Positions 11,544 through 29,069 of a stretch of DNA of 64,000 nucleotides are shown here, piece by piece (position 1 is the stretch's first letter; each line of letters starts with the position of its first letter). Source of the stretch: Chaetoderma sp. LZ-2023a (Eukaryota; Mollusca; Caudofoveata; Chaetodermatida; Chaetodermatidae); NCBI GenBank assembly GCA_034401795.1, contig CM067360.1, positions 124,599,901-124,663,900 of the forward strand, given 5' to 3'. The position numbers and the translations under genes are program-made. Under the pieces are notes generated by a model, which saw nothing but the letters and a program-made list of their open reading frames with translations, ran no database searches and was not told where the DNA came from.

Positions 11544-11700
11544 AATACTTACCAGATGTACTATTATGATAATGTCTATTATCCAGTCTAGGTCAAAATA
11601 AACAATTAAAACTCCGCACTCTCCTGGTCCTGCCCATACTGTGTCCGGGAATACCATAGCCGCAGGTACCGAGTCTATTCCCAATCACAGTCAGATTCGT
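11544..11700 (+). repeat. A1 left inverted terminal repeat (157 bp)
   Basis: Reverse complement of 18127-18283. At two sites A1 differs from A2 (TATTATCCAGTC and GAGTCTATTCC here) and the right repeat of A1 carries the complementary variants. Confidence 0.93.
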
Positions 11701-11799
11701 TTATTTTGCGCTTGTTTCAAGTCGCATGTGTTTAGAGTGTCATTTAATTGATAAATTAAGCAGTTTTAGCGCGTGTTTGGGAAAACCATCGCTGGACTA

Positions 11800-11832
11800 A
11801 TGGAGGAACTTGGAAAATCATCACAGGGGCAG
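11800..11832 (+). CDS. element A1 ORF1, proposed first coding exon
   Basis: Eleven codons (MEELGKSSQGQ) ending ..GGGCAG before GTTGTA, phase 0. The proposed acceptor ..CTCTGTGTTCGCAG ends at 12352, giving a 520-bp intron. The in-frame ATG-like start upstream of the acceptor (12290 region) would read intron sequence and lacks a counterpart in B or C, so I prefer the spliced model. Confidence 0.6.
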
Positions 11833-12022
11833 GTTGTATCAATCTAGAATTTATACATTCGTGCCATAATGCCTGTTTGAAATTTCCTTAAATTGGCACA
11901 TTGATTTATAATGGTAGCCATTGTTGGAGTCGCTTCTGTACCCGTTAACTTTTAGTTTTAATTCGGGTACTCGGTTAATTTTCTCTTGCGACTCGGTTCC
12001 TCTAAGATGGATGCGTCCTTAG

Positions 12023-12035
12023 CCAAGATGGCGGC
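12023..12035 (+). promoter_or_regulatory. YY1-like site in A1 leader intron
   Basis: CCAAGATGGCGGC matches the YY1 consensus (AAGATGGCGGC), a frequent downstream promoter element in metazoan genes and retrotransposons. The same site is kept in A2 at 22771-22783. Function inferred. Confidence 0.45.
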
Positions 12036-12352
12036 GCCCATGTAATATGTCGTTATTGGCTTGGGGTATCCAGGCACTCTGTTATCGCCGATTTTAGCTC
12101 TCGCTTCATTGTCGAGGGTGTTTGTAGTGATCGGCGAGGTTTTCTTGGTTATTTAACGCTAGTTAAAGGCTGAGTTGTGTTTTGTAAAATTTTCACTCAA
12201 AAAAGTTTCAAATATTTCCTGCCTAAGACTTGTTATCATTAATTTAAGAGAAAGTTATTGTGTTTAAGAAATCTTAACTATCAAGTCTATTGTGCGTATT
12301 GCTCGTCATCACTTGTCATGTGCAGCGTTTTAATTCTCCTCTGTGTTCGCAG

Positions 12353-14329
12353 AAACCGAAGAACCCGGACACTTTGTGCCAGAAGTGTAATAGGTTCATG
12401 AAACGCAAGTATCTTGGACATCACTGTGTGGCGTGTGCGAGGTGTAAGGTCGGCAGTCCGTGTGATGTGTGCGCCAAGTGGTCGTCGGCAATGGTGGCTG
12501 AGTTTGACAGGGATCGACGGGCGAGGCTGGAGCGCATAGAGAAGGATAAGACAGTGAAGCGTCAGCAGGCGTCGTTGGTTGGACTGGAAGGTCGGCTGAA
12601 TGAGAGGATGGATTCAGCACTGGGCGTATGGGCGGCCCAGTTCAAGGCCATGTTTGATTCGTTACAGTCCACGGGTCCGGTGAGGCAAGCTGGTGCAGGG
12701 CAACCATTAGGTGGCCCGGCTAGTTTTGCTGAGGGCCATGCACCTGACCTTTCTCTGTCCTCGGCTCAAGAGCCGTCGGCAGAGGAAGAAGAGTTCCTGT
12801 TGATGGAAGATTCTGGCATGCCGGATCTTTCAATGTCGGCAATGCCGAGTACGTCCCAGGGGTCTCCCTCGGGATTTGTACGGGTTTGCCAGGCGGATGG
12901 TGATGTCGACGTTCCGTTGGGCATTTTTCATCCGTCACTTGTGCAACCGGATATGCCGGCGGAGCCGTGGTTTGCGGTTCCGACGGCTATCCCGACGGCG
13001 TTGGGTGCGGCTCCTATCGGAGTTACCGTGCCAGCCGTGATTAAGGCGGTCGTAGTCCCGGATCCCGTGTTGGAGCCGATGGACTGCGGAGAATCCGTAT
13101 CCGACGGGTCGTTGGATACTGGTGCCGCCGGTAGTCGCGCTACGGATGCGCTCTGTCCTGGCAGAGACGTTTATCGTAGCGCTCAGCATGGATCGTCGGT
13201 GGCCCTCTCATCTAAGGGTGAGAGGGAAGATGAAAACGGAAGCTCTTTAATGGACGATTCCGCTTTCTGCGCCGAGGCTGAATGGGTGCAGGTCCTAGGA
13301 TGGATGACCAATCGTCTCGGGTTGGCATCGGATCTCGGATCTCAGCGCGATCCGGCGATGGAGCGGATGTCAGAGCGTGCGGCTAGCGCTCTGTCCAGTG
13401 GCTCTTCGGCCATGCCTACACTCCCCTTGGACTCGCAGACTTCTGACATGTTGGAAGTTGCGGCATATCGTCTGGTTCAGCCAGACTATGCATTGCCCAA
13501 GGCCCCGAAGGGGATAAGGAGTAGGGTCCGTTTTCCGGAGCAGGCCTATCATCAATATGCCAGGGTTCCACGGCTTTCCGTTGCGGAACGTGAGGCGCTG
13601 AATAGGCCGTTGGCTGGGAAGGCCAAGGGGCGGTCACGTCCCTTGGTTTCCCAGGCCAACAAAGACCCGTTTAATGAGCTCACGCTCATTGAGGATGCGG
13701 CTAGGGCGGCCATGGCTGCGCTGTCGCACGGGTGTACCGTCCTGCAGGGTATGCTGGACTGCTCGGCGGAAGGCGGACAGGTGCCAGAGGCTGCTCCCGG
13801 AGTTGTTCGGGACACCATGCGCCTGTCTCAGGATTGCCTGGCCAGGGTGATCACAAGAACTTTAGCAGAGCGGCGGAGAATGGTTCTCGATTGTGTGGAA
13901 CCAGGACCGGAAATGAGGGCAGCGTTATCTTCTGCGCCTTTCATTGGTCCAGGCTTGTTCGGCGGCTCGGCACGACAAGCGCTCTCTAAAGTTGCATCGA
14001 TGGTGGCGGAGCAAGAGGTGGTCGGCAAGTCGTGGAAGTCGACCAAGAGGACTCAGCCGCAACAGTCCTACCGTCAACACAGACAGGACCAGCAGAGGCA
14101 GCGTCCTAGATCGCCCTTCCGTCCTTCTGCCCGTGATGCCCATAGGCCATCCGGAGCGCAAGGACCTGGCCGTTCGTCCACATACAAGCCCTCTAGTAAG
14201 AGGCCGTATGAGGACGACAGGAAGGGTGGCGGTTCGGGCCGTGGCGGCTACCGTAAGGATAGTCGCGGCGGCGGTTCCGGACCGTCATACCACAAGAAGC
14301 CGCGGGGCGGCCGTGGGGCTCGTTCCTGA
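12353..14329 (+). CDS. element A1 ORF1, Gag-like protein, exon 2
   Basis: 658 codons; with the proposed first exon the product is 669 aa. Near the N terminus a cysteine/histidine cluster reads C-x2-C-x10-H-x-C-x2-C-x2-C-x5-C-x2-C-x2-W, identical in spacing in B and C and probably zinc-binding. Then comes an acidic, low-complexity region, a central conserved domain (words TLPLDSQTSDML, LPKAPKG) and a GPGLFGG motif. The last 85 residues are rich in Arg, Gly and Gln (ending GGRGARS) as in nucleic-acid-binding tails. The stop context is TCC TGA CGG. ORF2 (+1 frame) overlaps the last ~385 nt as an open frame, and ORF3 continues in the same frame right after the stop. No homology outside DIRS ORF1 recognised. 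Confidence 0.85.
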   Translation, partial: KPKNPDTLCQKCNRFMKRKYLGHHCVACARCKVGSPCDVCAKWSSAMVAEFDRDRRARLERIEKDKTVKRQQASLVGLEGRLNERMDSALGVWAAQFKAMFDSLQSTGPVRQAGAGQPLGGPASFAEGHAPDLSLSSAQEPSAEEEEFLLMEDSGMPDLSMSAMPSTSQGSPSGFVRVCQADGDVDVPLGIFHPSLVQPDMPAEPWFAVPTAIPTALGAAPIGVTVPAVIKAVVVPDPVLEPMDCGESVSDGSLDTGAAGSRATDALCPGRDVYRSAQHGSSVALSSKGEREDENGSSLMDDSAFCAEAEWVQVLGWMTNRLGLASDLGSQRDPAMERMSERAASALSSGSSAMPTLPLDSQTSDMLEVAAYRLVQPDYALPKAPKGIRSRVRFPEQAYHQYARVPRLSVAEREALNRPLAGKAKGRSRPLVSQANKDPFNELTLIEDAARAAMAALSHGCTVLQGMLDCSAEGGQVPEAAPGVVRDTMRLSQDCLARVITRTLAERRRMVLDCVEPGPEMRAALSSAPFIGPGLFGGSARQALSKVASMVAEQEVVGKSWKSTKRTQPQQSYRQHRQDQQRQRPRSPFRPSARDAHRPSGAQGPGRSSTYKPSSKRPYEDDRKGGGSGRGGYRKDSRGGGSGPSYHKKPRGGRGARS

Positions 14330-16499
14330 CGGGTTTCCGGCGGAATCAATACCGGCGGCTTTGGAAACAAATGGAGTCGAGAATCTTCACCCGAGCGATG
14401 TAGCGTCTTGTCGGCTAATCTCGACCGACAACTGTGTGCAGATTCCTTCCGTCGGAGGCAGACTTCAGCTATTCCTAAGCCAATGGGAACAGGTCGTGCG
14501 CGACTATTTAGTCTGTCAGTGGATAAGAAACGGCTACGATCCGGACTGGCTCATCCATCAATCGTTAGTTCCGTTAACCTCGACTCCAATATGGACTCCT
14601 ATTCCAAGGGAATTAGACCGTCTAGTTGCCATTCAGTCAGAGATAGAATCGCTTCGTCTGAAGAAGGCGATTCACCTGGTAGCCGATCAGTCATCACTGG
14701 GCTTCTATTCGATTATGTTCCTAGTTCCGAAGCGTACCGGAGGGTGGAGACCAATTCTCAATCTCAAACCGTTGAACAAATTTATTCTTTCTCCCAGGTT
14801 TCAGATGGAGACGGTAGCAGCTGTGATGGCAGGCCTCAGGAAAGGCATGTGGGCGGTATCAATAGATCTGAAGGATGCTTATTTTCATATTCCAATGTCA
14901 ATTCCCTTTCAGAAGTACCTGCGATTTGCATTCCAAGACAATGTTTGGGAATTCAATGCTCTTCCATTCGGCCTGACCACGGCTCCGAGGGTCTTCACCA
15001 AGGTGGTTCTCGCCATGACTTCTTTACTTCGCAGGAGAAACATAGCTGTTCACACTTACATAGACGACTGGCTGCTAAAGGCGGGGAATCCAGTCACTCT
15101 GCGCAGCAATCTGGAGGTAGTCCTAGACTTATTGAAGAAGCTAGGATGGATTGTGAATCTAGAGAAATCAGAACTGACTCCATCCCAGGAGTTTGTTTAT
15201 CTGGGAATTTTTTTCAATCTCAGGGACGGCGTAGCTTTTCCGGCGGAGAGCAGAGTCAGAAGCCTGATTGCAGTATTGGAGTCAGTTTCTCTAGGAGCCT
15301 ATCTGACGGCACGTCAATTTCTCAGAATACTCGGTTTGCTAGTATCTCTGGAGAAAGTGGTGCCATATGCGGCGCTCAGGCGCAGGCCGATTCAGATGTA
15401 TTTGATGTCGTTCTGGTCACAGAGAACAGATCCGTTGTCTCTGAGAATACCAGTGAAAGAACCATTGATATTCCACCTTCAGTGGTGGTTGTCGGAACAG
15501 AATCTCCTGCGAGGTGTTCCTCTACAACCTCCTCAACCTCAGATGTCCATGTTCACGGATGCGTCGTTGACAGGTTGGGGAGCGGTATTGGACAATCAGT
15601 CAGTGTCCGGGGAATGGGATCGGACCAATGCGCAGAAACATATCAATGTACTCGAGCTATTAGCGGTGGTATTAGCACTGCAGAAGTTCGAGGGTCGAGT
15701 TCAAGACAAAATTGTCCTAGTAAGGACAGACAACTCAACAGTGGTGTCTTATTTAAACCGCCAAGGCGGGACAAGATCACCGGAGTTGTGTATGATGGTT
15801 TGGAACCTTCTGCTGTGGTGCCAAGAGAGGATTATTATTCTTCGGGCAGCACACATTCCAGGAAGATTGAACATCTTAGCGGATGCTCTCAGTCGAAGGA
15901 CGGTTTGTCGTCCGACGGAATGGCAGCTCAACCAAGTGGTAGCAGAGGTTCTATTCAAACAATGGGGCAAGCTGAATGTCGACCTATTTGCGATGAAGAC
16001 AAACGCAAAGATGGTCACGTACGTGTCACCGATCCCGGACCCGTTGGCTCTAGCAGTAGACGCACTGGCGATAAGTTGGAAGGGAATGTACGCGTATGCG
16101 TATCCTCCAACAATTCTCATCCCGAAAGTTCTGGCAAAGATAAGAGAGGGGATGTGCCAAGTACTACTGATCGCTCCTTATTGGCCAGGCCGATCATGGT
16201 TTACGGATCTGCTGGACCTTCTGGTCTGCAGTCCAATCCCTCTTCCAGACACAAGAGATGTAATCTCTCAGAACAAGGGTCTGTACCTTCACGACAGACC
16301 AGAAATGTTCAAATTGACTGCATGGATGTTGTCAAGCAGCGTGCAATTGAGGGTGGCTTTTCTGAGCAAGCAGCGAAGTTTGTTGCTTCGGCCAGAAGAG
16401 TTTCTACCACAAAAACATATAATTATAGAATCAACAAATTTGCACAGTGGTGTGAGAGAAGAGATATTGATCCCTTTTCTGCATCTGTTCAACACGTAG
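14328..16499 (+). CDS. element A1 ORF2: reverse transcriptase, RNase H, Dam-like domain
   Basis: About 723 aa if entered by a +1 shift at the ORF1 stop; the frame is open further upstream to about 13944 and has no ATG between the ORF1 stop and the RT core. Residues counted from the shift: RT palm with IDLKDAYFHIP (Asp 180) and YIDD (244-247), typical of DIRS/Gypsy-type RT; RNase H with FTDAS (Asp 411), LEL (Glu 443), RTDNS (Asp 468) and LADAL (Asp 519); then a region of the type DLFA..NAK..Y..DP.A..DA..W..YAYPP (551-593), resembling the Dam-like N6-adenine methyltransferase domain known in DIRS ORFs. It makes cDNA from element RNA. Overlaps ORF3 almost completely. Confidence 0.88.
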   Translation, partial: DGFPAESIPAALETNGVENLHPSDVASCRLISTDNCVQIPSVGGRLQLFLSQWEQVVRDYLVCQWIRNGYDPDWLIHQSLVPLTSTPIWTPIPRELDRLVAIQSEIESLRLKKAIHLVADQSSLGFYSIMFLVPKRTGGWRPILNLKPLNKFILSPRFQMETVAAVMAGLRKGMWAVSIDLKDAYFHIPMSIPFQKYLRFAFQDNVWEFNALPFGLTTAPRVFTKVVLAMTSLLRRRNIAVHTYIDDWLLKAGNPVTLRSNLEVVLDLLKKLGWIVNLEKSELTPSQEFVYLGIFFNLRDGVAFPAESRVRSLIAVLESVSLGAYLTARQFLRILGLLVSLEKVVPYAALRRRPIQMYLMSFWSQRTDPLSLRIPVKEPLIFHLQWWLSEQNLLRGVPLQPPQPQMSMFTDASLTGWGAVLDNQSVSGEWDRTNAQKHINVLELLAVVLALQKFEGRVQDKIVLVRTDNSTVVSYLNRQGGTRSPELCMMVWNLLLWCQERIIILRAAHIPGRLNILADALSRRTVCRPTEWQLNQVVAEVLFKQWGKLNVDLFAMKTNAKMVTYVSPIPDPLALAVDALAISWKGMYAYAYPPTILIPKVLAKIREGMCQVLLIAPYWPGRSWFTDLLDLLVCSPIPLPDTRDVISQNKGLYLHDRPEMFKLTAWMLSSSVQLRVAFLSKQRSLLLRPEEFLPQKHIIIESTNLHSGVREEILIPFLHLFNT

Positions 16500-17347
16500 C
16501 AGATTTTATCTGTCATTTATACGAAGTTGACAAACTTGTACCTTCTACCCTAGCAGCATATAAGTCTGCATTAGCTTCTGTCATTCCTAGTCTCACCGTT
16601 GGGGGAGTAGAGAATGACACCTTGAATGAAGTTATTAAAGGAATGAGCAATCTGCGACCTAGACAGCCAATTCCTATCCCATCATGGAATCTATCTCTTG
16701 TTCTACAGGTTTTAGGGCATGCTCCCTTTGAACCGATTAGAACTATTGACATTAAACTGTTAACTATTAAATCAGTTTTCTTGGTTGCAGCAGCGTCGGC
16801 GAGAAGGAGAAGCGAGATCCATGCGCTTTCTGCCGAACAAGACCGTTTTGTCGTCACGGGTGAAGGTTTAAGATTACTTCCACGTCTTTGTTTCCTGGCA
16901 AAGAATCAGTCACTTAAATATCCAGGACAGCCGATCAATTTGCCAAGTTTAACTAGACATGACCCAAATTCTTGTGCTTGGTGTCCTGTCAGATGTCTAA
17001 AGATGTATAAGAAACGTACTTCTGAGTGGAGAGGCGACCCGAAATCTCTGTGGTTATGTCTCAAAGCTCCCCATTTACGTGCTTCGAAAGACACTATTTC
17101 TCGTTGGATAGTTGACGCTATTCAGATGTCGCACAAGATCGCTACAGGAAAGCAGATTGATCGTGCGAATGCCCATGAGGTCCGAGCACTAGCAGCATCA
17201 TCGGCCCTTTATAAGGGTGTCTCTTTAGAGCAGGTGATGTCTGTAGCACAATGGCATGCCGAGTCGTCATTCACTGATTTCTACCTTCGAGACATCTCCA
17301 GCACACTTAATCCAGTAGCCGTCGCCAATCTGTCGAACCTAAACTAA
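14330..17347 (+). CDS. element A1 ORF3: tyrosine recombinase, in frame with ORF1
   Basis: 1005 open codons following the ORF1 TGA without any intervening stop. The first two thirds overlap ORF2 in another frame and are Ser/Gly/Arg-rich with no recognisable domain. The C-terminal ~345 aa (from about 16310) are a DIRS-type tyrosine recombinase: SAM-like helical N part, then Arg in SARRRSEIH, HEVR (His..Arg), WHAESS and the nucleophile Tyr in DFYLRD (codon 17282-17284). It should integrate the circular DNA intermediate without target duplication, as seen at the junctions. Expression could be by UGA readthrough from ORF1 or from an internal start (a Met lies just before VVKQRAIEGG). Confidence 0.88.
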   Translation, partial: RVSGGINTGGFGNKWSRESSPERCSVLSANLDRQLCADSFRRRQTSAIPKPMGTGRARLFSLSVDKKRLRSGLAHPSIVSSVNLDSNMDSYSKGIRPSSCHSVRDRIASSEEGDSPGSRSVITGLLFDYVPSSEAYRRVETNSQSQTVEQIYSFSQVSDGDGSSCDGRPQERHVGGINRSEGCLFSYSNVNSLSEVPAICIPRQCLGIQCSSIRPDHGSEGLHQGGSRHDFFTSQEKHSCSHLHRRLAAKGGESSHSAQQSGGSPRLIEEARMDCESREIRTDSIPGVCLSGNFFQSQGRRSFSGGEQSQKPDCSIGVSFSRSLSDGTSISQNTRFASISGESGAICGAQAQADSDVFDVVLVTENRSVVSENTSERTIDIPPSVVVVGTESPARCSSTTSSTSDVHVHGCVVDRLGSGIGQSVSVRGMGSDQCAETYQCTRAISGGISTAEVRGSSSRQNCPSKDRQLNSGVLFKPPRRDKITGVVYDGLEPSAVVPREDYYSSGSTHSRKIEHLSGCSQSKDGLSSDGMAAQPSGSRGSIQTMGQAECRPICDEDKRKDGHVRVTDPGPVGSSSRRTGDKLEGNVRVCVSSNNSHPESSGKDKRGDVPSTTDRSLLARPIMVYGSAGPSGLQSNPSSRHKRCNLSEQGSVPSRQTRNVQIDCMDVVKQRAIEGGFSEQAAKFVASARRVSTTKTYNYRINKFAQWCERRDIDPFSASVQHVADFICHLYEVDKLVPSTLAAYKSALASVIPSLTVGGVENDTLNEVIKGMSNLRPRQPIPIPSWNLSLVLQVLGHAPFEPIRTIDIKLLTIKSVFLVAAASARRRSEIHALSAEQDRFVVTGEGLRLLPRLCFLAKNQSLKYPGQPINLPSLTRHDPNSCAWCPVRCLKMYKKRTSEWRGDPKSLWLCLKAPHLRASKDTISRWIVDAIQMSHKIATGKQIDRANAHEVRALAASSALYKGVSLEQVMSVAQWHAESSFTDFYLRDISSTLNPVAVANLSNLN

Positions 17348-17961
17348 GCCACGTCCGACCACTACTTCGCACACATCACAAAGGACTTCCGCCTACACTG
17401 ACCAAGCGCTATGCACATGACTGAGTACGACCGTGGATTGGGCCTAGCTCCTGTGATGATCAATAACAGATCGACCACTCAAAAATGGTGAGTGTTTACA
17501 TTAGTTAAGTGACTTTAATATATTTACTTCCAGTCGAAATACCAGACTGAGTAAGTGAATAGTCTGGTACAAGAGTATATTTATCCTCTCATACAGACAT
17601 GTGACTCATTCCAATTTGAAAATCTAATCGATATACTGATAGTTTTTTTCAAATATTTGAAGTTGTAGTAGCTTCTTTGCACTCTACTGGACTGCCCTAG
17701 CTGAGACTTGGGGCTGACACGGGTCTGGTGGGTGTTGCATCCCCATGGACATCCCTCTGGTTTTGTGCGGACAAAAGAGGGGGGGGGAGCGCGGTCTAGA
17801 CCATAGAAGTTTAGCACTCTATGAGTCAGATAGCAGAACCCAAGCGTATGCCAGGGTTTTAGTCTCTTCACAACCTTCTCTGTTGGATGGTTGATGAGTG
17901 CTGGTTCGAGCCTCACCTCCTCCCACCGGCATTTCCTGGCTGTCGAAATCCGGAGTTTATC
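17348..17961 (+). other. A1 3' non-coding region before the internal complementary region
   Basis: Holds a G9-AGCGC motif at 17779-17792 that recurs in B and C. Otherwise no gene. A GGTTCGAGCC word near 17907 looks like an RNA polymerase III B box but has no tRNA-like context. Confidence 0.6.
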
Positions 17962-18057
17962 ATAATAGTACATCTGGTAAGTATTATTCGAAGTAGAATC
18001 AAAAAAGCATCCGCTTTTGTTTCTACGAGAATTCTTAATACTTACCAGATGTACTAT
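17962..18057 (+). repeat. A1 internal complementary region
   Basis: The left half is the reverse complement of the left edge (11530-11567); the right half is the reverse complement of the right edge to the GGTAAGTAT core. Joined, they spell the expected circle junction TTTTTTG-ATT-CTACTTC. In the DIRS1 model this region templates joining of the ends into a circle. Confidence 0.92.
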
Positions 18058-18064
18058 GGCCCTG

Positions 18065-18084
18065 CCTCAGCCGCCCCGCTGAGG
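18065..18084 (+). other. A1 conserved hairpin after the internal complementary region
   Basis: CCTCAGC / GCTGAGG stem (7 bp) with loop CGCCCC. B (30945-30965) and C (53337-53359) have hairpins at the same place with different stem sequence and a similar C-rich loop. Confidence 0.65.
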
Positions 18085-18126
18085 TGAGGCTGAGCTGCTT
18101 TCGCAGTTTGCCAAGGCAAACATAAG

Positions 18127-18283
18127 ACGAATCTGACTGTGATTGGGAATAGACTCGGTACCTGCGGCTATGGTATTCCCGGACACAGTATGGGCAGGAC
18201 CAGGAGAGTGCGGAGTTTTAATTGTTTATTTTGACCTAGACTGGATAATAGACATTATCATAATAGTACATCTGGTAAGTATT
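18127..18283 (-). repeat. A1 right inverted terminal repeat
   Basis: Complement of 11544-11700, followed by a 37-38-bp right-edge arm to the core at 18321-18323. Confidence 0.93.
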
Positions 18284-18473
18284 AAGAATTCTCGTAGAAA
18301 CAAAAGCGGATGCTTTTTTGAATCAGCCTGGCTATGTGTTTATCAGCAATTCAAGCGCTATGCTGGTTTCTGATGTATATTGATCTTTATGATCGTTTTC
18401 CTTCTCTTTGAGTTGGATTGAGTTTCTAAGCTTAACTAGTTGCTCATACTCCTTGTCCTTTGCCCTGTTTCAG

Positions 18474-20537
18474 GGACCGGGTTGCGCGTCCTGTGGTCGT
18501 TTTCTGCAGGATAAGTTCTGGCCGCATCTGTGCTGTCAATGTAGCCCTTGTGGTCCATTGGTTAATTGTGACATATGTAAGCACTGGGGGGGCGAGTTAA
18601 TGTCCGAATTCTTGTGCTGTTTACAGGCGACGGACAAGGTGGTAGAAGAGGAGAAGAAGAAGAAGCGGAAACGAGAGGTTGTAAGTAGGAAGGGTAAGGG
18701 GAAGGTCTCGTCCGCGGTGGATATGGAGGCCTTCCGGACCGAGATGTTGGGAGTGATGAAGAGGACAATAAAGGATTTGGTTCCAGGGTTGCTTCGTGGC
18801 ATGCTTCCTGGACCAAATCCTTTACTGTCCTCATCATCGGCTTCGGAGCAGGTAATCCCCGCCTCTGGATCGATTTTCCTTAGTCCGCTTCCGTTGTCCG
18901 ACGATTCAGAGGTGGCCCCATTAGAGGGGGCGTTCCACGGCCCTGGCAGCAGGCTTATTGCCGCGCCGATAGGGGACCGTGGACGGTTGTCGCTGGAACC
19001 CGCGGGCTGCTTATCAGTCCAGGGGTATCCGCACGCCGCGGTGGCCAGTACCTCCTATGGCACCGTTCCTGGTCAGCCCGGGTTAGCTCTCTTTGCTGAC
19101 CCGGGGTCTAATCTTTCTGACCAGGGTAATGAGGATTACCTGCTAGGGTCGCCGTCTGACGACGTGGACATGGATGAAGACGTTTGTGCACCCCTCGCGG
19201 GGAATACAGGCGCCTTGTTCCACGGTTTTACTCACCCTGGAGTAAAGTCCGCGGCTCAGGTGGTGGCCCAGGGCGCTGCTGATGGCCAGCGGTACCGCAT
19301 ACCTCGGCTTGCCGAGGGTGTTGCTGGTGCTGGCCGGGCCCGTGGTGAGACTATATATACCCCGCGCTCTGCCACGGTGCCTGCTCCTGGTCAAACCAGT
19401 GATATTCTCATGCCGGTGCTGTCAGGCCCGCGTGTTTTCCCTGGCTTGCCAGGTGTATCAGCATACCCGCCGTCAAGCTCTACTGCTTGCGCTCAGGAGG
19501 AAGACGAAGGACCCCGTCTTGTAGAGCGCTCGCAGTTAGCCACGGAGGAGGATTGGTATGACGCTTGCCAGTGGTTGGTGAGCGTTAGGCCTGATCTGCC
19601 CGTGGAGCAGTCGGCTAGCCAGCGTGTTCACACGCCGTGGTTAGCTGGGAAACCGACTGCTAACGCTATGCCTTCTCTGCCGCTGGCGGAGCATGTCGTT
19701 GACATGTTCAAGGCGGCGGAGTCGTCCATTAAGTCGAGTGGACGTCTCGCGAAGGCCCCTCGCGAGGTGGCCAGGCGTTGTCGCATCGTGCCCCTGGATT
19801 ACCAGCGGTACGGTGTGGTACCCAAGCCCAGCGTGGATGACCGCGCGGCTTTGGGTGAGGATGCGCGGCCAGGCTCCCGTTCTGACACGGGTGTCTTGTG
19901 CGCGAACGCGTTGCGTTCGGCGAATGCCGCGTTGCGTGATGCGGAGGAGAGTGGGAGGGCTTCGATTGCCGCTCTGTCCCACGTCTCCCAGCTGTTACAG
20001 GGGGTAGTAACGGCATCCGCATCGCGCCAGCCAAGTCCGGTCACTGTCCAGCGAACCATCCAGGATGGTATTAACCTGGCGCTGGACTGTGTGACTCGGG
20101 CGGTGACCAGGAGTGTCAGGGCAAGACGCACGTTTGCCCTGGACAATCTGTGCCCGTCTCAGGACCTGTACAATAGGCTACTGCGTACGCCTATGACGGG
20201 CCCTGGTCTTTTTGGAGGTGAGGGATGTCGCCACCTCCAGGAGACGGTCACCCTGGTGAATACCCAGAGGGCGCTGCGCGAGCAGTTTGATGTGCTGCGT
20301 CGTGCTAACGCTCGCGCCGCGGCCCCGGCGTATCGTCCCCTGCAGGCTCGAGGTGGTGCTGGCCAGGTCAGTGGCCAGCCACCGTCGCAGCGTCGGCCTC
20401 GGCCGCGTGCGATTCGGCCAGCAGCGAGGGGGGCGCAGGTTCCTCAGGCGCCGTCAGCCAGGCAGCCGCCCGCGCACCGAGGTGCGCGCGGGGCGGGGCG
20501 GGGCCCGCGAGGATCTGGGCGTGGTTATCGGTCCTGA
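18474..20537 (+). CDS. element B ORF1, Gag-like protein, exon 2
   Basis: 687 codons, 704 aa with the proposed first exon. Opens with GPGCASCGR and carries the C-x2-C-x10-H-x-C-x2-C-x2-C-x5-C-x2-C-x2-W cluster. Next comes a Lys/Arg-rich stretch (EEEKKKKRKR), possibly nuclear-localising or RNA-binding, long Pro/Gly/Ser linkers, a conserved centre (SLPLAEHVVDMF, LAKAPREVARRCR) and TGPGLFGG, and an Arg/Gly tail (GSGRGYRS). The stop is CGG TCC TGA CAG. The upstream in-frame ATG at 18408 reads intron. Closest relative in the window is C ORF1; A ORF1 is more distant but colinear. Confidence 0.85.
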   Translation, partial: GPGCASCGRFLQDKFWPHLCCQCSPCGPLVNCDICKHWGGELMSEFLCCLQATDKVVEEEKKKKRKREVVSRKGKGKVSSAVDMEAFRTEMLGVMKRTIKDLVPGLLRGMLPGPNPLLSSSSASEQVIPASGSIFLSPLPLSDDSEVAPLEGAFHGPGSRLIAAPIGDRGRLSLEPAGCLSVQGYPHAAVASTSYGTVPGQPGLALFADPGSNLSDQGNEDYLLGSPSDDVDMDEDVCAPLAGNTGALFHGFTHPGVKSAAQVVAQGAADGQRYRIPRLAEGVAGAGRARGETIYTPRSATVPAPGQTSDILMPVLSGPRVFPGLPGVSAYPPSSSTACAQEEDEGPRLVERSQLATEEDWYDACQWLVSVRPDLPVEQSASQRVHTPWLAGKPTANAMPSLPLAEHVVDMFKAAESSIKSSGRLAKAPREVARRCRIVPLDYQRYGVVPKPSVDDRAALGEDARPGSRSDTGVLCANALRSANAALRDAEESGRASIAALSHVSQLLQGVVTASASRQPSPVTVQRTIQDGINLALDCVTRAVTRSVRARRTFALDNLCPSQDLYNRLLRTPMTGPGLFGGEGCRHLQETVTLVNTQRALREQFDVLRRANARAAAPAYRPLQARGGAGQVSGQPPSQRRPRPRAIRPAARGAQVPQAPSARQPPAHRGARGAGRGPRGSGRGYRS

Positions 20538-22277
20538 CAGGACGCTTACCGCGGTAAGAACCACTCCGGTGTGTATGGCGGCGGAGACAGTGCCGCTCTT
20601 GCATGCCTCGTGTCCACCGCGGTCCCTAGGTGGGCCGGTGGGAGGCCGGCTAGCCGGCCACCTGCAAGAGTGGGAACGGTTAACTCAGGACCGTTTAGTC
20701 TTGCGATGGCTTTCCGTCGGGTATCATCCAGAGTGGGTGACAGGGCCGCCGTCGCGACTGTCTCTGGTGCCAGTCTGGACTCCCATTCCGAGAGATCCAG
20801 AGCAAAGGTTGTGTATCGAGGAGGAGATAAATTCCCTCATACAAAAGGGAGCTATTCAGCCGGCACAAAGGTGTCCGGGCTTCTATTCAACCCTGTTCTT
20901 AGTAACAAAACGCACCGGTGGGTGGAGACCGATTCTCAACCTCAAGCCATTGAACAAGTTCATCGAGACGCCCAGTTTCAAGATGGAAACGGTGCGCTCG
21001 GTGTTGGCGGGGTTGGAGAGGGGGATGTGGACGGCGTCGATAGATTTGAAGGACGCTTATTTCCACATCCCCATCCACGGGAGTTTCTGTCGCTTCCTGA
21101 GATTTGCATTCCAGGGCAGACAGTGGGAATTCAGGGTGTTGCCCTTCGGAATTTCCACGGCTCCTCGGGTTTTCACCCGTGTGGTTCTTGCGATCACAGC
21201 ATACCTCCGCAGGAGAAGCATAGCAGTCCACACGTACATAGACGACTGGCTGTTGAAAGCGCACACCCGGGAAAGTTTGTCCGCCAATCTGGAGATTGTT
21301 TTGAAAATTCTCACAGACTTGGGCTGGATGATCAATTTCCCAAAATCAGAGCTGACTCCATCCCAGAAGTTTGTTTACCTGGGGATGTTCTTCGATCTAG
21401 AGACAGGATATGTTTATCCTACTCAGGAGAGAGTTCAAATACTCATCTCGTTGATTCAGTCAGTGTGCGACAGTCGTCATGTCCTGGCACGGGTTTACTT
21501 GAGAATGCTGGGGTTGATGGTTTCGTTGGAACCAGTCATTCCTCAGGCCGCCTTACGCAGGCGGCCGATCCAGTTGTTTCTCATGACACAATGGACCCAG
21601 AGTACAGGTTCGCTGGACTCGAATGTGTCAGTGTTGGCGCCTCTGATTCACCACCTGCAATGGTGGTTGAATACAGAGAATCTCTTGCCGGGGGTTTTGC
21701 TAACCCCTCCCCACCCTCAGGTGACTGTGTATACAGATGCATCGATGGAGGGCTGGGGAGCTTGCCTGGAAGAATCCACGATATCAGGGCTTTGGAATCT
21801 GGAACAGTCACAGGAACATATAAATCTACTGGAGCTAAGAGCAGTAGTCCTGGGCCTGGAACATTTCTTACAGAAAGTTCAGGGCAAGATTGTTCTTATT
21901 CGTTCAGACAACTCAACAGTTGTGACTTACATAAACCGCCAGGGCGGAACGAAGTCGCCCAGTCTCTGTATGATGACATGGAAACTGCTTTGTTGGTGTC
22001 TGGATCACCAGATTACCTTGAAAGCAGTTCATATTCCGGGAAGGTTAAACCTGCTAGCAGACTCATTGAGCCGAAGGATGAGTGTTTTACCCACGGAATG
22101 GCAACTAAATCAATGTGTGGCGGATCGTCTGTTCGACCATTGGGGGAAACCCAACATCGATTTGTTCGCAACGAAGAAGAATGCGAAGATGACGACGTAC
22201 GTCTCTCCGATTCCGGATCCAAGCGCTTTCGCAACAGATGCGTTAGCTATCAGCTGGGGGAGAATGTATGCATACGC
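20536..22277 (+). pseudogene. element B ORF2, 5' part (RT-RNase H), cut by element A2
   Basis: In the +1 frame to ORF1, open upstream to 20287. An in-frame ATG (20575-20577) lies 37 nt after the ORF1 stop, so reinitiation is an alternative to frameshifting here. It contains IDLKDAYFHIP, YIDD, and RNase H YTDAS, LELR, RSDNS and LADSL motifs, then the start of the Dam-like domain (DLFATKKNAK..YVSP). A2 is inserted at ATT 22278-22280 within the AYA(F)PP motif. The 3' part is at 29070-29460; across the insertion the frame is preserved (2382 nt from 20287). Confidence 0.87.
20538..22277 (+). pseudogene. element B ORF3, 5' part, overlapping ORF2
   Basis: 580 codons open in the ORF1 frame directly after the ORF1 TGA, ending at the A2 insertion. 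No recognisable domain in this part, as in A and C. The recombinase domain is on the far side of A2 (29070-30299); 1740 + 1230 nt keeps one frame. Confidence 0.75.
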
Positions 22278-22291
22278 ATTCTACTTCGAAT

Positions 22292-22448
22292 AATACTTAC
22301 CAGATGTACTATTATGATAATGTCTATTATCTAGTCTAGGTCAAAATAAACAATTAAAACTCCGCACTCTCCTGGTCCTGCCCATACTGTGTCCGGGAAT
22401 ACCATAGCCGCAGGTACCGAGTCCATTCCCAATCACAGTCAGATTCGT
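22292..22448 (+). repeat. A2 left inverted terminal repeat
   Basis: Complement of 28876-29032. Carries TATTATCTAGTC and GAGTCCATTCC where A1 has C and T; the right repeat of A2 has the matching complements. Confidence 0.93.
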
Positions 22449-22547
22449 TTATTTTGCGCTTGTTTCAAGTCGCATGTGTTTAGAGTGTCATTTAATTGAT
22501 AAATTAAGCAGTTTTAGCGCGTGTTTGTGAAAACCATCGCTGGACTA

Positions 22548-22783: not shown

Positions 22784-23100
22784 GCCCATGTAATATGTCG
22801 TTATTGGCTTGGGGTATCCAGGCACTCTGTTATCGCCGATTTTAGCTCTCGCTTCATTGTCGAGGGTGTTTGTAGTGATCGGCGAGGTTTTCTTGGTTAT
22901 TTAACGCTAGTTAAAGGCTGAGTTGTGTTTTGTAAAATTTTCACTCAAAAAAGTTTCAAATATTTCCTGCCTAAGACTTGTTATCATTAATTTAAGAGAA
23001 AGTTAATGTGTTTAAGAAATCTTAACTATCAAGTCTATTGTGCGTATTGCTCGTCATCACTTGTCATGTGCAGCGTTTTAATTCTCCTCTGTGTTCGCAG

Positions 23101-25077
23101 AAACCGAAGAACCCGGACACGTTGTGCCAGAAGTGTAATAGGTTCATGAAACGCAAGTATCTTGGACATCACTGTGTGGCGTGTGCGAGGTGTAAGGTCG
23201 GCAGTCCGTGTGATGTGTGCGCCAAGTGGTCGTCGGCAATGGTGGCTGAGTTTGACAGGGATCGACGGGCGAGGCTGGAGCGCATAGAGAAGGATAAGAC
23301 AGTGAAGCGTCAGCAGGCGTCGTTGGTTGGACTGGAAGGTCGGCTGAATGAGAGGATGGATTCAGCACTGGGCGTATGGGCGGCCCAGTTCAAGGCCATG
23401 TTTGATTCATTACAGTCCACGGGTCCGGTGAGGCAAGCTGGTGCAGGGCAACCATTAGGTGGCCCGGCTAGTTTTGCTGAGGGCCATGCACCTGACCTTT
23501 CTCTGTCCTCGGCTCAAGAGCCGTCGGCAGAGGAAGAAGAGTTCCTGTTGATGGGAGATTCCGGCATGCCGGATCTTTCAATGTCGGCAATGCCGAGTAC
23601 GTCCCAGGGGTCTCCCTCGGGATTTGTACGGGTTTGCCAGGCGGATGGTGATGTCGACGTTCCGTCGGGCATTTTTCATCCGTCACTTGTGCAACCGGAT
23701 ATGCCGGCGGAGCCGTGGTTTGCGGTTCCGACGGCTATCCCGACGGCGTTGGGTGCGGCTCCTATCGGAGTTACCGTGCCAGCCGTGATTAAGGCGGTCG
23801 TAGTCCCGGATCCCGTGTTGGAGCCGATGGACTGCGGAGAATCCGTATCCGACGGTTCGTTGGATACTGGTGCCGCCGGTAGTCGCGCTACGGATGCGCT
23901 CTGTCCTGGCAGAGACGTTTATCGTAGCGCTCAGCATGGATCGTCGGTGGCCCTCTCATCTAAGGGTGAGAGGGAAGATGAAAACGGAAGCTCTTTAATG
24001 GACGATTCCGCTTTCTGCGCCGAGGCTGAATGGGTGCAGGTCCTAGGATGGATGACCAATCGTCTAGGGTTGGCATCGGATCTCGGATCTCAGCGCGATC
24101 CGGCGATGGAGCGGATGTCAGAGCGTGCGGCTAGCGCTCTGTCCAGTGGCTCTTCGGCCATGCCTACACTCCCCTTGGACTCGCAGACTTCTGACATGTT
24201 GGAAGTTGCGGCATATCGTCTGGTTCAGCCAGACTATGCATTGCCCAAGGCCCCGAAGGGGATAAGGAGTAGGGTCCGTTTTCCGGAGCAGGCCTATCAT
24301 CAATACGCCAGGGTTCCACGGCTTTCCGTTGCGGAACGTGAGGCGCTGAATAGGCCGTTGGCTGGGAAGGCCAAGGGGCGGTCACGTCCCTTGGTTTCCC
24401 AGACCAACAAAGACCCATTTAATGAGCTCACGCTCATTGAGGATGCGGCTAGGGCGGCCATGGCTGCGCTGTCGCACGGGTGTACCGTCCTGCAGGGTAT
24501 GCTGGACTGCACGGCGGAAGGCGGACAGGTGCCAGAGGCTGCTCCCGGAGTTGTTCGGGACACCATGCGCCTGTCTCAGGATTGCCTGGCCAGGGTGATC
24601 ACAAGAACTTTAGCAGAGCGGCGGAGAATGGTTCTCGATTGTGTGGAACCAGGACCGGAAATGAGGGCAGCGTTATCTTCTGCGCCTTTCATTGGTCCAG
24701 GCTTGTTCGGCGGCTCGGCACGACAAGCGCTTTCTAAAGTTGCATCGATGGTGGCGGAGCAAGAGGTGGTCGGCAAGTCGTGGAAGTCGACCAAGAGGAC
24801 TCAGCCGCAACAGTCCTACCGTCAACACAGACAGGACCAGCAGAGGCAGCGTCCTAGATCGCCCTTCCGTCCTTCTGCCCGTGATGCCCATAGGCCATCC
24901 GGAGCGCAAGGACCTGGCCGTTCGTCCACATACAAGCCCTCTAGTAAGAGGCCGTATGAGGACGACGGGAAGGGTGGCGGTTCGGGCCGTGGCGGCTACC
25001 GTAAGGATAGTCGCGGCGGCGGTTCCGGACCGTCATACCACAAGAAGCCGCGGGGCGGCCGTGGGGCTCGTTCCTGA
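23101..25077 (+). CDS. element A2 ORF1, Gag-like protein, exon 2
   Basis: Same length as A1 ORF1 with five amino-acid differences that I noticed (for example LLMGDSG for LLMEDSG, DVPSGIF for DVPLGIF, EDDGKGG for EDDRKGG). The cysteine motif, GPGLFGG motif and Arg/Gly tail are unchanged, and the stop context is again TCC TGA CGG. Confidence 0.85.
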   Translation, partial: KPKNPDTLCQKCNRFMKRKYLGHHCVACARCKVGSPCDVCAKWSSAMVAEFDRDRRARLERIEKDKTVKRQQASLVGLEGRLNERMDSALGVWAAQFKAMFDSLQSTGPVRQAGAGQPLGGPASFAEGHAPDLSLSSAQEPSAEEEEFLLMGDSGMPDLSMSAMPSTSQGSPSGFVRVCQADGDVDVPSGIFHPSLVQPDMPAEPWFAVPTAIPTALGAAPIGVTVPAVIKAVVVPDPVLEPMDCGESVSDGSLDTGAAGSRATDALCPGRDVYRSAQHGSSVALSSKGEREDENGSSLMDDSAFCAEAEWVQVLGWMTNRLGLASDLGSQRDPAMERMSERAASALSSGSSAMPTLPLDSQTSDMLEVAAYRLVQPDYALPKAPKGIRSRVRFPEQAYHQYARVPRLSVAEREALNRPLAGKAKGRSRPLVSQTNKDPFNELTLIEDAARAAMAALSHGCTVLQGMLDCTAEGGQVPEAAPGVVRDTMRLSQDCLARVITRTLAERRRMVLDCVEPGPEMRAALSSAPFIGPGLFGGSARQALSKVASMVAEQEVVGKSWKSTKRTQPQQSYRQHRQDQQRQRPRSPFRPSARDAHRPSGAQGPGRSSTYKPSSKRPYEDDGKGGGSGRGGYRKDSRGGGSGPSYHKKPRGGRGARS

Positions 25078-27247
25078 CGGGTTTCCGGCGGAATCAATAC
25101 CGGCGGCTTTGGAAACAAATGGAGTCGAGAATCTTCACCCAAGCGATGTAGCGTCTTGTCGGCTAATCTCGACCGACAACTGTGTGCAGATTCCTTCCGT
25201 CGGAGGCAGACTTCAGCTATTCCTAAGCCAATGGGAACAGGTCGTGCGCGACTATTTAGTCTGTCAGTGGATAAGAAACGGCTACGATCCGGACTGGCTC
25301 ATCCATCAATCGTTAGTTCCGTTAACCTCGACTCCAATATGGACTCCTATTCCAAGGGAATTAGACCGTCTAGTTGCCATTCAGTCAGAGATAGAATCGC
25401 TTCGTCTGAAGAAGGCGATTCACCTGGTAGCCGATCAGTCATCACTGGGCTTCTATTCGATTATGTTCCTAGTTCCGAAGCGTACCGGAGGGTGGAGACC
25501 AATTCTCAATCTCAAACCGTTGAACAAATTTATTCTTTCTCCCAGGTTTCAGATGGAGACGGTAGCAGCTGTGATGGCAGGCCTCAGGAAAGGCATGTGG
25601 GCGGTATCAATAGATCTGAAGGATGCTTATTTTCATATTCCAATGTCAATTCCCTTTCAGAAGTACCTGCGATTTGCATTCCAAGACAATGTTTGGGAAT
25701 TCAATGCTCTTCCATTCGGCCTGACCACGGCTCCGAGGGTCTTCACCAAGGTGGTTCTCGCCATGACTTCTTTACTTCGCAGGAGAAACATAGCTGTTCA
25801 CACTTACATAGACGACTGGCTGCTAAAGGCGGGGAATCCAGTCACTCTGCGCAGCAATCTGGAGGTAGTCCTAGACTTATTGAAGAAGCTAGGATGGATT
25901 GTGAATCTAGAGAAATCAGAACTGACTCCATCCCAGGAGTTTGTTTATCTGGGAATTTTTTTCAATCTCAGGGACGGCGTAGCTTTTCCGGCGGAGAGCA
26001 GAGTCAGAAGCCTGATTGCAGTATTGGAGTCAGTTTCTCTAGGAGCCTATCTGACGGCACGTCAATTTCTCAGAATACTCGGTTTGCTAGTATCTCTGGA
26101 GAAGGTGGTGCCATATGCGGCGCTCAGGCGCAGGCCGATTCAGATGTATTTGATGTCATTCTGGTCACAGAGAACAGATCCGTTGTCTCTGAGAATACCA
26201 GTGAAAGAACCATTGATATTCCACCTTCAGTGGTGGTTGTCGGAACAGAATCTCCTGCGAGGTGTTCCTCTACAACCTCCTCAACCTCAGATGTCCATGT
26301 TCACGGATGCGTCGTTGACAGGTTGGGGAGCGGTATTGGACAATCAGTCAGTGTCCGGGGAATGGGATCGGACCAATGCGCAGAAACATATCAATGTACT
26401 CGAGCTATTAGCGGTGGTATTAGCACTGCAGAAGTTCGAGGGTCGAGTTCAAGACAAAATTGTCCTAGTAAGGACAGACAACTCAACAGTGGTGTCTTAT
26501 TTAAACCGCCAAGGCGGGACAAGATCACCGGAGTTGTGTATGATGGTTTGGAACCTTCTGCTGTGGTGCCAAGAGAGGAATATTATTCTTCGGGCAGCAC
26601 ACATTCCAGGAAGATTGAACATCTTAGCGGATGCTCTCAGTCGAAGGACGGTTTGTCGTCCGACGGAATGGCAGCTCAACCAAGTGGTAGCAGAGGTTCT
26701 ATTCAAACAATGGGGCAAGCCGAATGTCGACCTATTTGCGATGAGGTCAAACGCAAAGATGGTCACGTACGTGTCACCGATCCCAGACCCGTTGGCTCTT
26801 GCAGTAGACGCACTGGCGATAAGTTGGAAGGGAATGTACGCGTATGCGTATCCTCCAACAATTCTCATCCCGAAAGTTCTGGCAAAGATAAGAGAGGGGA
26901 TGTGCCAAGTACTACTGATCGCTCCTTATTGGCCAGGCCGATCATGGTTTACGGATCTGCTGGACCTTCTGGTCTGCAGTCCAATCCCTCTTCCAGACAC
27001 AAGAGATGTAATCTCTCAGAACAAGGGTCTGTACCTTCACGACAGACCAGAAATGTTCAAATTGACTGCATGGATGTTGTCAAGCAGCGTGCAATTGAGG
27101 GTGGCTTTTCTGAGCAAGCAGCGAAGTTTGTTGCTTCGGCCAGAAGAGTTTCTACCACAAAAACATATAATTATAGAATCAACAAATTTGCACAGTGGTG
27201 TGAGAGAAGAGATATTGATCCCTTTTCTGCATCTGTTCAACACGTAG
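25076..27247 (+). CDS. element A2 ORF2: reverse transcriptase, RNase H, Dam-like domain
   Basis: Intact counterpart of A1 ORF2, entered in the +1 frame at the ORF1 stop. All catalytic motifs (IDLKDAYFHIP, YIDD, FTDAS, LEL, RTDNS, LADAL) are present. It differs from A1 at a few residues, for example GKPNVDLFAMRSN versus GKLNVDLFAMKTN in the Dam-like part. Confidence 0.88.
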   Translation, partial: DGFPAESIPAALETNGVENLHPSDVASCRLISTDNCVQIPSVGGRLQLFLSQWEQVVRDYLVCQWIRNGYDPDWLIHQSLVPLTSTPIWTPIPRELDRLVAIQSEIESLRLKKAIHLVADQSSLGFYSIMFLVPKRTGGWRPILNLKPLNKFILSPRFQMETVAAVMAGLRKGMWAVSIDLKDAYFHIPMSIPFQKYLRFAFQDNVWEFNALPFGLTTAPRVFTKVVLAMTSLLRRRNIAVHTYIDDWLLKAGNPVTLRSNLEVVLDLLKKLGWIVNLEKSELTPSQEFVYLGIFFNLRDGVAFPAESRVRSLIAVLESVSLGAYLTARQFLRILGLLVSLEKVVPYAALRRRPIQMYLMSFWSQRTDPLSLRIPVKEPLIFHLQWWLSEQNLLRGVPLQPPQPQMSMFTDASLTGWGAVLDNQSVSGEWDRTNAQKHINVLELLAVVLALQKFEGRVQDKIVLVRTDNSTVVSYLNRQGGTRSPELCMMVWNLLLWCQERNIILRAAHIPGRLNILADALSRRTVCRPTEWQLNQVVAEVLFKQWGKPNVDLFAMRSNAKMVTYVSPIPDPLALAVDALAISWKGMYAYAYPPTILIPKVLAKIREGMCQVLLIAPYWPGRSWFTDLLDLLVCSPIPLPDTRDVISQNKGLYLHDRPEMFKLTAWMLSSSVQLRVAFLSKQRSLLLRPEEFLPQKHIIIESTNLHSGVREEILIPFLHLFNT

Positions 27248-28095
27248 CAGATTTTATCTGTCATTTATACGAAGTTGACAAACTTGTACCTTCTACCCTA
27301 GCAGCATATAAGTCTGCATTAGCTTCTGTCATTCCTAGTCTCACCGTTGGGGGAGTAGAGAATGACACCTTGAATGAAGTTATTAAAGGAATGAGCAATC
27401 TGCGACCTAGACAGCCAATTCCTATCCCATCATGGAATCTATCTCTTGTTCTACAGGTTTTAGGGCATGCTCCCTTTGAACCGATTAGAACTATTGACAT
27501 TAAACTGTTAACTATTAAATCAGTTTTCTTGGTTGCAGCAGCGTCGGCGAGAAGGAGAAGCGAGATCCATGCGCTTTCTGCCGAACAAGACCGTTTTGTC
27601 GTCACGGGTGAAGGTTTAAGATTACTTCCACGTCTTTGTTTCCTGGCAAAGAATCAGTCACTTAAATATCCAGGACAGCCGATCAATTTGCCAAGTTTAA
27701 CTAGACATGACCCAAATTCTTGTGCTTGGTGTCCTGTCAGATGTCTAAAGATGTATAAGAAACGTACTTCTGAGTGGAGAGACGACCCGAAATCTCTGTG
27801 GTTATGTCTCAAAGCTCCCCATTTACGTGCTTCGAAAGATACTATTTCTCGTTGGATAGTTGACGCTATTCAGATGTCGCACAAGATCGCTACAGGAAAG
27901 CAGATTGATCGTGCGAATGCCCATGAGGTCCGAGCACTAGCAGCATCATCGGCCCTTTATAAGGGTGTCTCTTTAGAGCAGGTGATGTCTGTAGCACAAT
28001 GGCATGCCGAGTCGTCATTCACTGATTTCTACCTTCGAGACATCTCCAGCACACTTAATCCAGTAGCCGTCGCCAATCTGTCGAACCTAAACTAA
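25078..28095 (+). CDS. element A2 ORF3: tyrosine recombinase, in frame with ORF1
   Basis: 1005 codons open after the ORF1 TGA, with the recombinase catalytic set (SARRRSEIH, HEVR, WHAESS, DFYLRD) in the last ~345 residues. Differs from A1 mostly in the overlapping part (for example CDEVKRK for CDEDKRK), plus EWRDDPK for EWRGDPK in the recombinase part. Confidence 0.88.
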   Translation, partial: RVSGGINTGGFGNKWSRESSPKRCSVLSANLDRQLCADSFRRRQTSAIPKPMGTGRARLFSLSVDKKRLRSGLAHPSIVSSVNLDSNMDSYSKGIRPSSCHSVRDRIASSEEGDSPGSRSVITGLLFDYVPSSEAYRRVETNSQSQTVEQIYSFSQVSDGDGSSCDGRPQERHVGGINRSEGCLFSYSNVNSLSEVPAICIPRQCLGIQCSSIRPDHGSEGLHQGGSRHDFFTSQEKHSCSHLHRRLAAKGGESSHSAQQSGGSPRLIEEARMDCESREIRTDSIPGVCLSGNFFQSQGRRSFSGGEQSQKPDCSIGVSFSRSLSDGTSISQNTRFASISGEGGAICGAQAQADSDVFDVILVTENRSVVSENTSERTIDIPPSVVVVGTESPARCSSTTSSTSDVHVHGCVVDRLGSGIGQSVSVRGMGSDQCAETYQCTRAISGGISTAEVRGSSSRQNCPSKDRQLNSGVLFKPPRRDKITGVVYDGLEPSAVVPREEYYSSGSTHSRKIEHLSGCSQSKDGLSSDGMAAQPSGSRGSIQTMGQAECRPICDEVKRKDGHVRVTDPRPVGSCSRRTGDKLEGNVRVCVSSNNSHPESSGKDKRGDVPSTTDRSLLARPIMVYGSAGPSGLQSNPSSRHKRCNLSEQGSVPSRQTRNVQIDCMDVVKQRAIEGGFSEQAAKFVASARRVSTTKTYNYRINKFAQWCERRDIDPFSASVQHVADFICHLYEVDKLVPSTLAAYKSALASVIPSLTVGGVENDTLNEVIKGMSNLRPRQPIPIPSWNLSLVLQVLGHAPFEPIRTIDIKLLTIKSVFLVAAASARRRSEIHALSAEQDRFVVTGEGLRLLPRLCFLAKNQSLKYPGQPINLPSLTRHDPNSCAWCPVRCLKMYKKRTSEWRDDPKSLWLCLKAPHLRASKDTISRWIVDAIQMSHKIATGKQIDRANAHEVRALAASSALYKGVSLEQVMSVAQWHAESSFTDFYLRDISSTLNPVAVANLSNLN

Positions 28096-28875: not shown

Positions 28876-29032
28876 ACGAATCTGACTGTGATTGGGAATG
28901 GACTCGGTACCTGCGGCTATGGTATTCCCGGACACAGTATGGGCAGGACCAGGAGAGTGCGGAGTTTTAATTGTTTATTTTGACCTAGACTAGATAATAG
29001 ACATTATCATAATAGTACATCTGGTAAGTATT
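28876..29032 (-). repeat. A2 right inverted terminal repeat
   Basis: Complement of 22292-22448, including both A2-specific variants. Confidence 0.93.
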
Positions 29033-29069
29033 AAGAATTCTCGTAGAAACAAAAGCGGATGCTTTTTTG

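Follow-up and report, generated by a model that had tools for sequence, protein, structure and literature searches.

How does a DIRS1-like retrotransposon, whose genes overlap extensively, reach the two enzymes encoded downstream of gag? This question is raised by a window of 64,000 nucleotides (nt) from the mollusc Chaetoderma sp. LZ-2023a (GenBank assembly GCA_034401795.1, 2.44 Gb; contig CM067360.1, positions 124,599,901 to 124,663,900), which holds four DIRS1-like tyrosine-recombinase retrotransposons, named A1, A2, B and C; A2 is a close copy of A1, and as the two represent one family, A was counted once. Such elements are very numerous in the host genome. In A, B and C a gag-like open reading frame (ORF1) ends at a UGA, ORF3 with the tyrosine recombinase (YR) begins directly past this UGA in the same frame, and ORF2 with the reverse transcriptase (RT) lies in the +1 frame. 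This layout makes it fairly probable, in our judgement, that the DIRS1-like elements described here express three products from one RNA by means of the single UGA at the end of gag. The fuller proposal, that this UGA acts as a three-way switch (Gag; Gag-RT via a +1 shift on NCC-UGA; Gag-recombinase) conserved across DIRS elements of different animals, has in our view slightly less than an even chance. Better supported than the NCC-UGA class is another discovery, namely that selection keeps the gag frame uninterrupted as far as the recombinase.

For eight elements, RT codons were shuffled among synonyms 1000 times and stops in the ORF3 frame were counted. Between 15.0 and 34.7 stops were expected within ORF2 and the lowest shuffle still contained 4, compared with 0 in all eight natural sequences (the test on B takes in about four A2 codons). 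In A1, where the first ~2.1 kb of ORF3 overlap ORF2, 30.1 stops were expected. In addition, T was absent from RT third positions preceding AA, AG or GA (0 of 869, against 903 of 3914 elsewhere; seven elements). This demonstrates that selection keeps ORF3 open through RT, and since it is stop-free across the whole overlap and T is avoided where it would create a stop, ribosomes probably reach the recombinase by moving in frame from the UGA onwards. ORF3 directly follows a UGA of its own frame in seven of the eight elements and thus resembles readthrough genes, with an in-frame coding extension past a stop that is held open by selection; as nothing but the UGA interrupts the common frame of gag and ORF3, readthrough would be the simplest route to the recombinase. 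In the eighth element, L108, ORF3 lies outside the gag frame and must be reached differently, as stop avoidance coexists there with another gag frame. The overlap of gag and RT in L108 is in the -1 direction, spans 52 nt (2131-2182) and contains A_AAA_AAG, possibly another recoding route. RT third positions vary between relatives (0.34-0.54 differences per site), which together with the zero stops suggests that the overlap is mainly a passage held open; a strongly conserved protein encoded by the ORF3 overlap is unsupported, since these positions vary.

Entry into ORF3 close to the recombinase, by splicing or at an internal start, would leave no reason for the frame to remain open through RT. 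Spliced mRNAs give access to downstream genes in retroelements, and splicing might likewise join gag or its leader to ORF2 or ORF3 here, leaving the UGA as an ordinary gag stop. Donor-like sequences (at least 7 of 9 positions) do occur near the junction, four in B and two in C. However, a crude consensus scan of six elements, from -450 (or the start of gag) to +130 of the UGA, revealed no pair of donor and acceptor in any of them and, in A1 and L107, neither a donor-like (at least 7 of 9) nor an acceptor-like site. Splicing would also not require ORF3 to be open over ~2.1 kb of RT, yet it is open in all eight elements, and we regard this explanation as quite unlikely.

With respect to RT, reading of the junctions (CGT TCC TGA C in A1 and A2, CGG TCC TGA C in B, CGG GCC TGA T in C; the A2 UGA at 25075-25077) confirmed the original prediction that ORF1 ends with UCC UGA in A1, A2 and B and with GCC UGA in C, and that a +1 step at the UGA enters the RT frame, where the peptides resume with DGFPAES in A, DRTLTAV in B and DARKFFP in C. 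The overlap of gag and RT had been put at 250-385 nt and is actually about 411 nt in A, 276 nt in B and 282 nt in C, with the +1 frame open upstream of the UGA for 137, 92 and 94 codons. Among six elements these upstream open runs extend over 61-137 codons, which is the length expected by chance for the codon content of gag (P 0.10-0.58 in 6 of 6). As gag composition accounts for the length of the run, nothing indicates that RT starts within gag, and selection on this part of the RT frame need not be assumed.

Element A was correctly described as lacking an ATG between the UGA and the RT core: the first RT-frame Met is at codon 130, while the core (VGGRL) starts at codon 42. The conclusion drawn from this, that A needs recoding or a non-AUG start, stands for the region past the UGA and does not extend upstream of it, where two RT-frame ATGs lie within gag (14136, 14208), so that AUG-dependent internal initiation in A is possible as far as the sequence goes. 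RT and ORF3 might then be separate proteins, made by internal or non-AUG initiation or by reinitiation past the UGA. RT-frame ATGs inside gag are present in A, B, C, L110 and L111, and further ones follow soon after the UGA in B (codon 14) and C (codon 29). On the other hand, the stretch from the UGA to the RT core contains no Met in A, L107, L110 and L111, and in L107 the upstream +1 run also lacks one, as does RT before codon 141. Without a usable AUG, L107 must reach RT by recoding, a non-AUG start or splicing. Since the upstream +1 run is of chance length, and since separate initiation leaves the frame identity of gag and ORF3 unexplained, we consider this alternative rather improbable.

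The site was also compared outside the three families of the window. A fourth family in the host genome, D (L101-L106, L115; 651-base stretches covering ~60-70 codons past the UGA), has ACC UGA G, with the RT core again in the +1 frame; CGA replaces UGA in one of its seven members (L105). Seven further loci were found in a scan of bacterial and archaeal assemblies and are most likely animal DNA. L107 carries CCC UGA A, and L110 and L111 carry GAU UGA C; all three share the layout of gag and ORF3 in one frame, a single UGA, and RT in the +1 frame. L109 has GAC UGA C, with gag brought into the RT frame through an upstream difference; L112 (broken frames) and L113 (partial) were left out of the counts. 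If A, B, C, D, L107 and the group L109-L111 are treated as one lineage each, UGA is present in all six and NCC precedes it in five, whereas UCC alone is found in two. NCC makes up 3-18% of gag codons in seven gag sequences (those of C and D partial), and with the NCC frequency of each gag the Poisson-binomial probability of this pattern is 1.4e-5, or 2.8e-4 if B and C are merged; NCC in 4 of 5 at an assumed frequency of 0.2 gives P 0.0067. The NCC-UGA class and the frame identity of gag and ORF3 thus recur across lineages beyond chance, and UCC alone does not. Conservation of UCC-UGA among related elements, as originally expected, was not borne out (UCC in A and B, GCC in C, ACC in D, CCC in L107, GAU or GAC in L109-L111), and a strict UCC-UGA motif was rejected because the P-site codon differs between lineages; what is conserved is the wider NCC-UGA class, not the literal antizyme motif. 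The suggestion that one stop could yield three products fared better, since other lineages share the layout and selection demonstrably keeps ORF3 open.

The pattern might also be a coincidence of a basic, GC-rich gag C-terminus. It was noticed post hoc and is broken by GAU and GAC in L109-L111, and gag composition does explain the +1 open run; yet with NCC at 3-18% of gag codons, its position as last codon in five of six lineages speaks against coincidence, which we think unlikely. Among the places listed in searches with distant proteins for new families, the 18 stretches that were read all belong to A, B or D, although further families may exist in the host genome. Some host-genome copies from this search have RT and recombinase in one frame (997-1690 amino acids open); such rows were set aside, as the ranking favours them when the query holds both domains. 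Of three IMG/VR scans, two gave no match and one gave five matching stretches, none of them a relative.

According to the mechanism that we propose, most ribosomes would terminate at the UGA and release Gag. Some would slip by +1 with the P-site tRNA on NCC and the UGA in the A site, continue on GAN and produce Gag-RT-RNaseH-Dam, and others would read the UGA as sense and pass through ~700 codons of open linker to yield Gag-linker-recombinase. By the tRNA re-pairing rules behind inosine-34 slippage from NCC to CCU, an inosine-34 tRNA on NCC would keep two of three anticodon contacts after the move, which may be why an NCC followed by U matters; GAY-UGA would call for a different mode in its lineage. 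It is conceivable, if somewhat unlikely, that only the readthrough or only the frameshift is real, for example that readthrough gives Gag-YR and RT is reached via a shift further upstream in the overlap. Stop avoidance concerns ORF3 and not the entry point of RT, and UGA C is a leaky stop context that occurs in A, B and L109-L111, both of which would suit a single event; NCC before the UGA in five of six lineages would then be left unexplained.

The proposed three-way use of one UGA has a parallel in cellular genes. Passages of PMC9841425 report that in human OAZ1 and OPRL1 reporters termination, readthrough and both shifts compete at one UGA, and that the P-site codon of the OAZ1 site acts mainly on the +1 share. 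With the antizyme +1 site, as described in parts of PMC5009743, PMC2375905 and PMC9841425, the elements share UCC_UGA (A, B) and +1 entry on GAN. UCC_UGA is the main antizyme site, CCC_UGA, the site of L107, a rare natural variant, and GCG_UGA is found in yeast (PMC5009743, in the passages available); +1 sites where re-pairing is impossible also exist (PMC12661321, likewise in part). The elements differ from antizyme by GCC, ACC and GAU or GAC, by the lack of a detected antizyme 3' element, and by the base past the UGA (C, U, G or A), which in the OAZ1 passages is a conserved U. In addition, their zero frame is open as well, which might allow a third product. The designation of the site as antizyme-like fits UCC UGA and the +1 continuation in A and B; elsewhere the codon is GCC (C), ACC (D), CCC (L107) and GAU or GAC (L109-L111). 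A PF02100 search for the antizyme of the host gave no match, but was uninformative, as none was obtained in control genomes either.

Within families, the site is kept in 30 of 30 near-identical copies of A, 30 of 30 of B and 29 of 30 of C (one C copy has GCC UAA). This carries little information, as the copies were the best matches to a query that itself contained the site. Among 16 copies chosen via RT or YR homology, 14 keep NCC UGA, one has UCU GGA and one ACC CGA. Among 150 C-type rows scored out of 39,960 candidates, two have open frames of 1698 and 1619 amino acids, consistent with a lost UGA, and six further ones have open frames of 1000 to 1274 amino acids. One B-type copy (L100) has a tandem UGA at the junction (UCC UGA UGA), and in L093, L094 and L109 differences at the gag end shift gag into the RT frame and create a single long gag-RT frame.

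Several observations weigh against the expression of three products by way of one UGA. All expression steps are inferred from sequence. The NCC class was defined after the sites had been seen, the sampled members of each family hardly differ, which gives their conservation little weight, and the P-site codon is not NCC in L110 and L111 (GAU) or in L109 (GAC); GAY-UGA does not fit NCC to CCU re-pairing. L108, from a Bathymodiolus gill-symbiont assembly, has a different frame layout. The +1 shift could in principle occur anywhere in the open run of 61-137 codons and not just at the UGA. Nor are NCC codons equivalent, since in a mammalian cassette the replacement of UCC_UGA by CCC_UGA led to significantly less frameshifting (PMC5009743, in the part consulted). 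The antizyme-like downstream structure that had been anticipated was not recovered: an Rfam search at the A1, B and C junctions gave no antizyme frameshift element and no credible match, so that this candidate was dropped for the junctions searched, and downstream folding was inconsistent (z 0.18 to -3.45 over eight stretches, with pseudoknots outside the model), falling below -2 only in L110 and in the L095 stretch, which began seven bases too far downstream. Third-position differences are somewhat lower in the overlap than in non-overlapping gag or YR codons of the same pairs (0.38-0.65), namely 0.34 against 0.51 in gag for B-C, 0.54 against 0.65 in YR for A-C, 0.47 against 0.54 in YR for L110-L111, and 0.36 against 0.38 for L110-L109, so that some protein-level constraint on the ORF3 overlap is possible. 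From other elements, the junction of Candida Tca2 alone gave no readthrough in yeast (PMC2194720, in the passages seen). Finally, green fluorescent protein (GFP) fusions of all three ORFs of Dictyostelium DIRS-1 were obtained in silencing mutants, according to parts of PMC5633606, and these, should they reflect separate initiation, could argue against fusion products in DIRS-1.

The features of the window elements are compiled in Table 1. A1 has inverted terminal repeats of 158 nt (11543-11700 and 18127-18284) and internal complementary regions at 17957-17999 and 17996-18057, which overlap at 17996-17999; the limits of A2 were taken as those of A1 shifted by 10748 bases. In C, a repeat search gave one pair of 66 nt close to the 3' end and a weak one of 35 nt, but no clear terminal pair. 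Opposite the 3' repeat region both A copies contain a minus-strand ORF of 161 amino acids (17581-18066, 28330-28815). A2 is nested in B, occupying about 22278-29072 within 18393-30299. C ORF2 matches B up to residue 586, where A2 sequence follows and provides the final codons of B ORF2; matches resume at 29,053 (ORF2) and 29,070 (ORF3), and from ~29070 the 3' part of B ORF3 matches residues 585-993 of C ORF3 at 85%. B is thus an interrupted element, and simple truncation was ruled out, as the remainder of its RT and recombinase resumes after A2. The C copy probably carries an indel in gag, because its gag is divided between two frames (47754-49663), the upstream part (47754-49163) differing in frame from the C-terminal part. 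Pfam RVT_1 was detected in ORF2 of A (3e-23), B (3.6e-22) and C (5.7e-22), and RT_RNaseH above the cut-off in A (6.8e-07) and below it in B and C. Dam matches were below the cut-off in A (0.02) and C (0.0039), and the cut ORF2 of B gave none. ORF3 of A and C showed weak SAM-like matches (Phage_int_SAM) below the cut-off; C ORF3 shares 27% identity with P0001, which passes the cut-off of one integrase SAM-like family. The tyrosine recombinase residues R, HxxR and Y were spotted by eye in ORF3, and a PDB sequence search for the recombinase gave no useful match.

Table 1. Features of elements A1, B, A2 and C in the window (proposed recoding sites are predictions)
Feature	Position	Strand	Basis or remark
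A1 element limits	11530..18324		terminal repeats and internal complementary regions
A1 ORF1 (gag-like), stop to stop, end CGT TCC TGA	12278..14329	+	ORF list, junction read
A1 proposed recoding site UCC UGA C	14324..14330	+	UGA at 14327-14329
A1 ORF2 (RT, RNase H, weak Dam match)	13917..16499	+	+1 frame relative to ORF1; Pfam
A1 ORF3, 1005 codons, tyrosine recombinase at C-terminus	14330..17347	+	ORF1 frame
B ORF1 (gag-like), end CGG TCC TGA	18393..20537	+	ORF list, junction read
B proposed recoding site UCC UGA C	20532..20538	+	UCC 20532-20534, UGA 20535-20537
B ORF2 (RT; RNase H below cut-off)	20260..22293	+	+1 frame; cut at ~22278 by A2
B ORF3, 5' part, ORF1 frame	20538..22334	+	interrupted at ~22278 by A2
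ORF with 3' part of B ORF3 (recombinase), past inserted A2	29028..30299	+	match to C ORF3
A2 ORF1 (gag-like)	23026..25077	+	UCC UGA at 25072-25077
A2 ORF2 (RT)	24665..27247	+	ORF list, junction read
A2 ORF3 (recombinase), ORF1 frame	25078..28095	+	ORF list, junction read
C gag, C-terminal part, end CGG GCC TGA	49013..49663	+	ORF list, junction read
C proposed recoding site GCC UGA U	49658..49664	+	UGA at 49661-49663
C ORF2 (RT; RNase H, Dam below cut-off)	49380..51785	+	+1 frame
C ORF3 (recombinase), 993 codons	49664..52645	+	gag frame

With DIRS1-like elements described previously, those of the window share the Gag, RT-RNase H-methyltransferase and YR ORFs (PMC3266345, PMC9210276), as well as inverted terminal repeats and internal complementary regions that overlap in a short circular junction (PMC3266345); a long overlap of ORF2 and ORF3 is given for half of 28 DIRS1-like elements in PMC3266345, all according to the portions of these papers at hand. 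The passages on DIRS elements at hand do not address the translational route of the overlapping genes, nor a single UGA, the frame identity of gag and ORF3, or stop avoidance. The term 'stop codon' is absent from the main texts of PMC3266345 and PMC9210276, and 'readthrough' and 'splic' are also absent from that of PMC3266345. Among the matches listed in literature searches, no title or beginning of an abstract described recoding in DIRS elements; older DIRS papers are probably outside this coverage, and priority is unsettled. Candida Tca2 likewise has a UGA between gag and the downstream enzyme (PMC2194720, in part). In contrast to Tca2, the in-frame partner in the elements described here is the recombinase, and RT lies in the +1 frame. 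We know of no comparable in-frame extension in Ty1 or Ty3. What these two share with the DIRS1-like elements is the +1 shift from Gag to pol (passages of PMC5009743).

The avoidance of stops in a second frame provides a cheap genome-scale test for translated overlap frames. If our proposal is true, the codon choice of RT would be shaped by a second translation, and the main job of the linker would be to stay open. The elements would represent a natural case of the competition between termination, readthrough and +1 shift as measured by reporters (PMC9841425, in the passages considered), with the ratio of the three products set at one codon. A single stop codon would govern the output of three products from elements that abound in the genome of their host.

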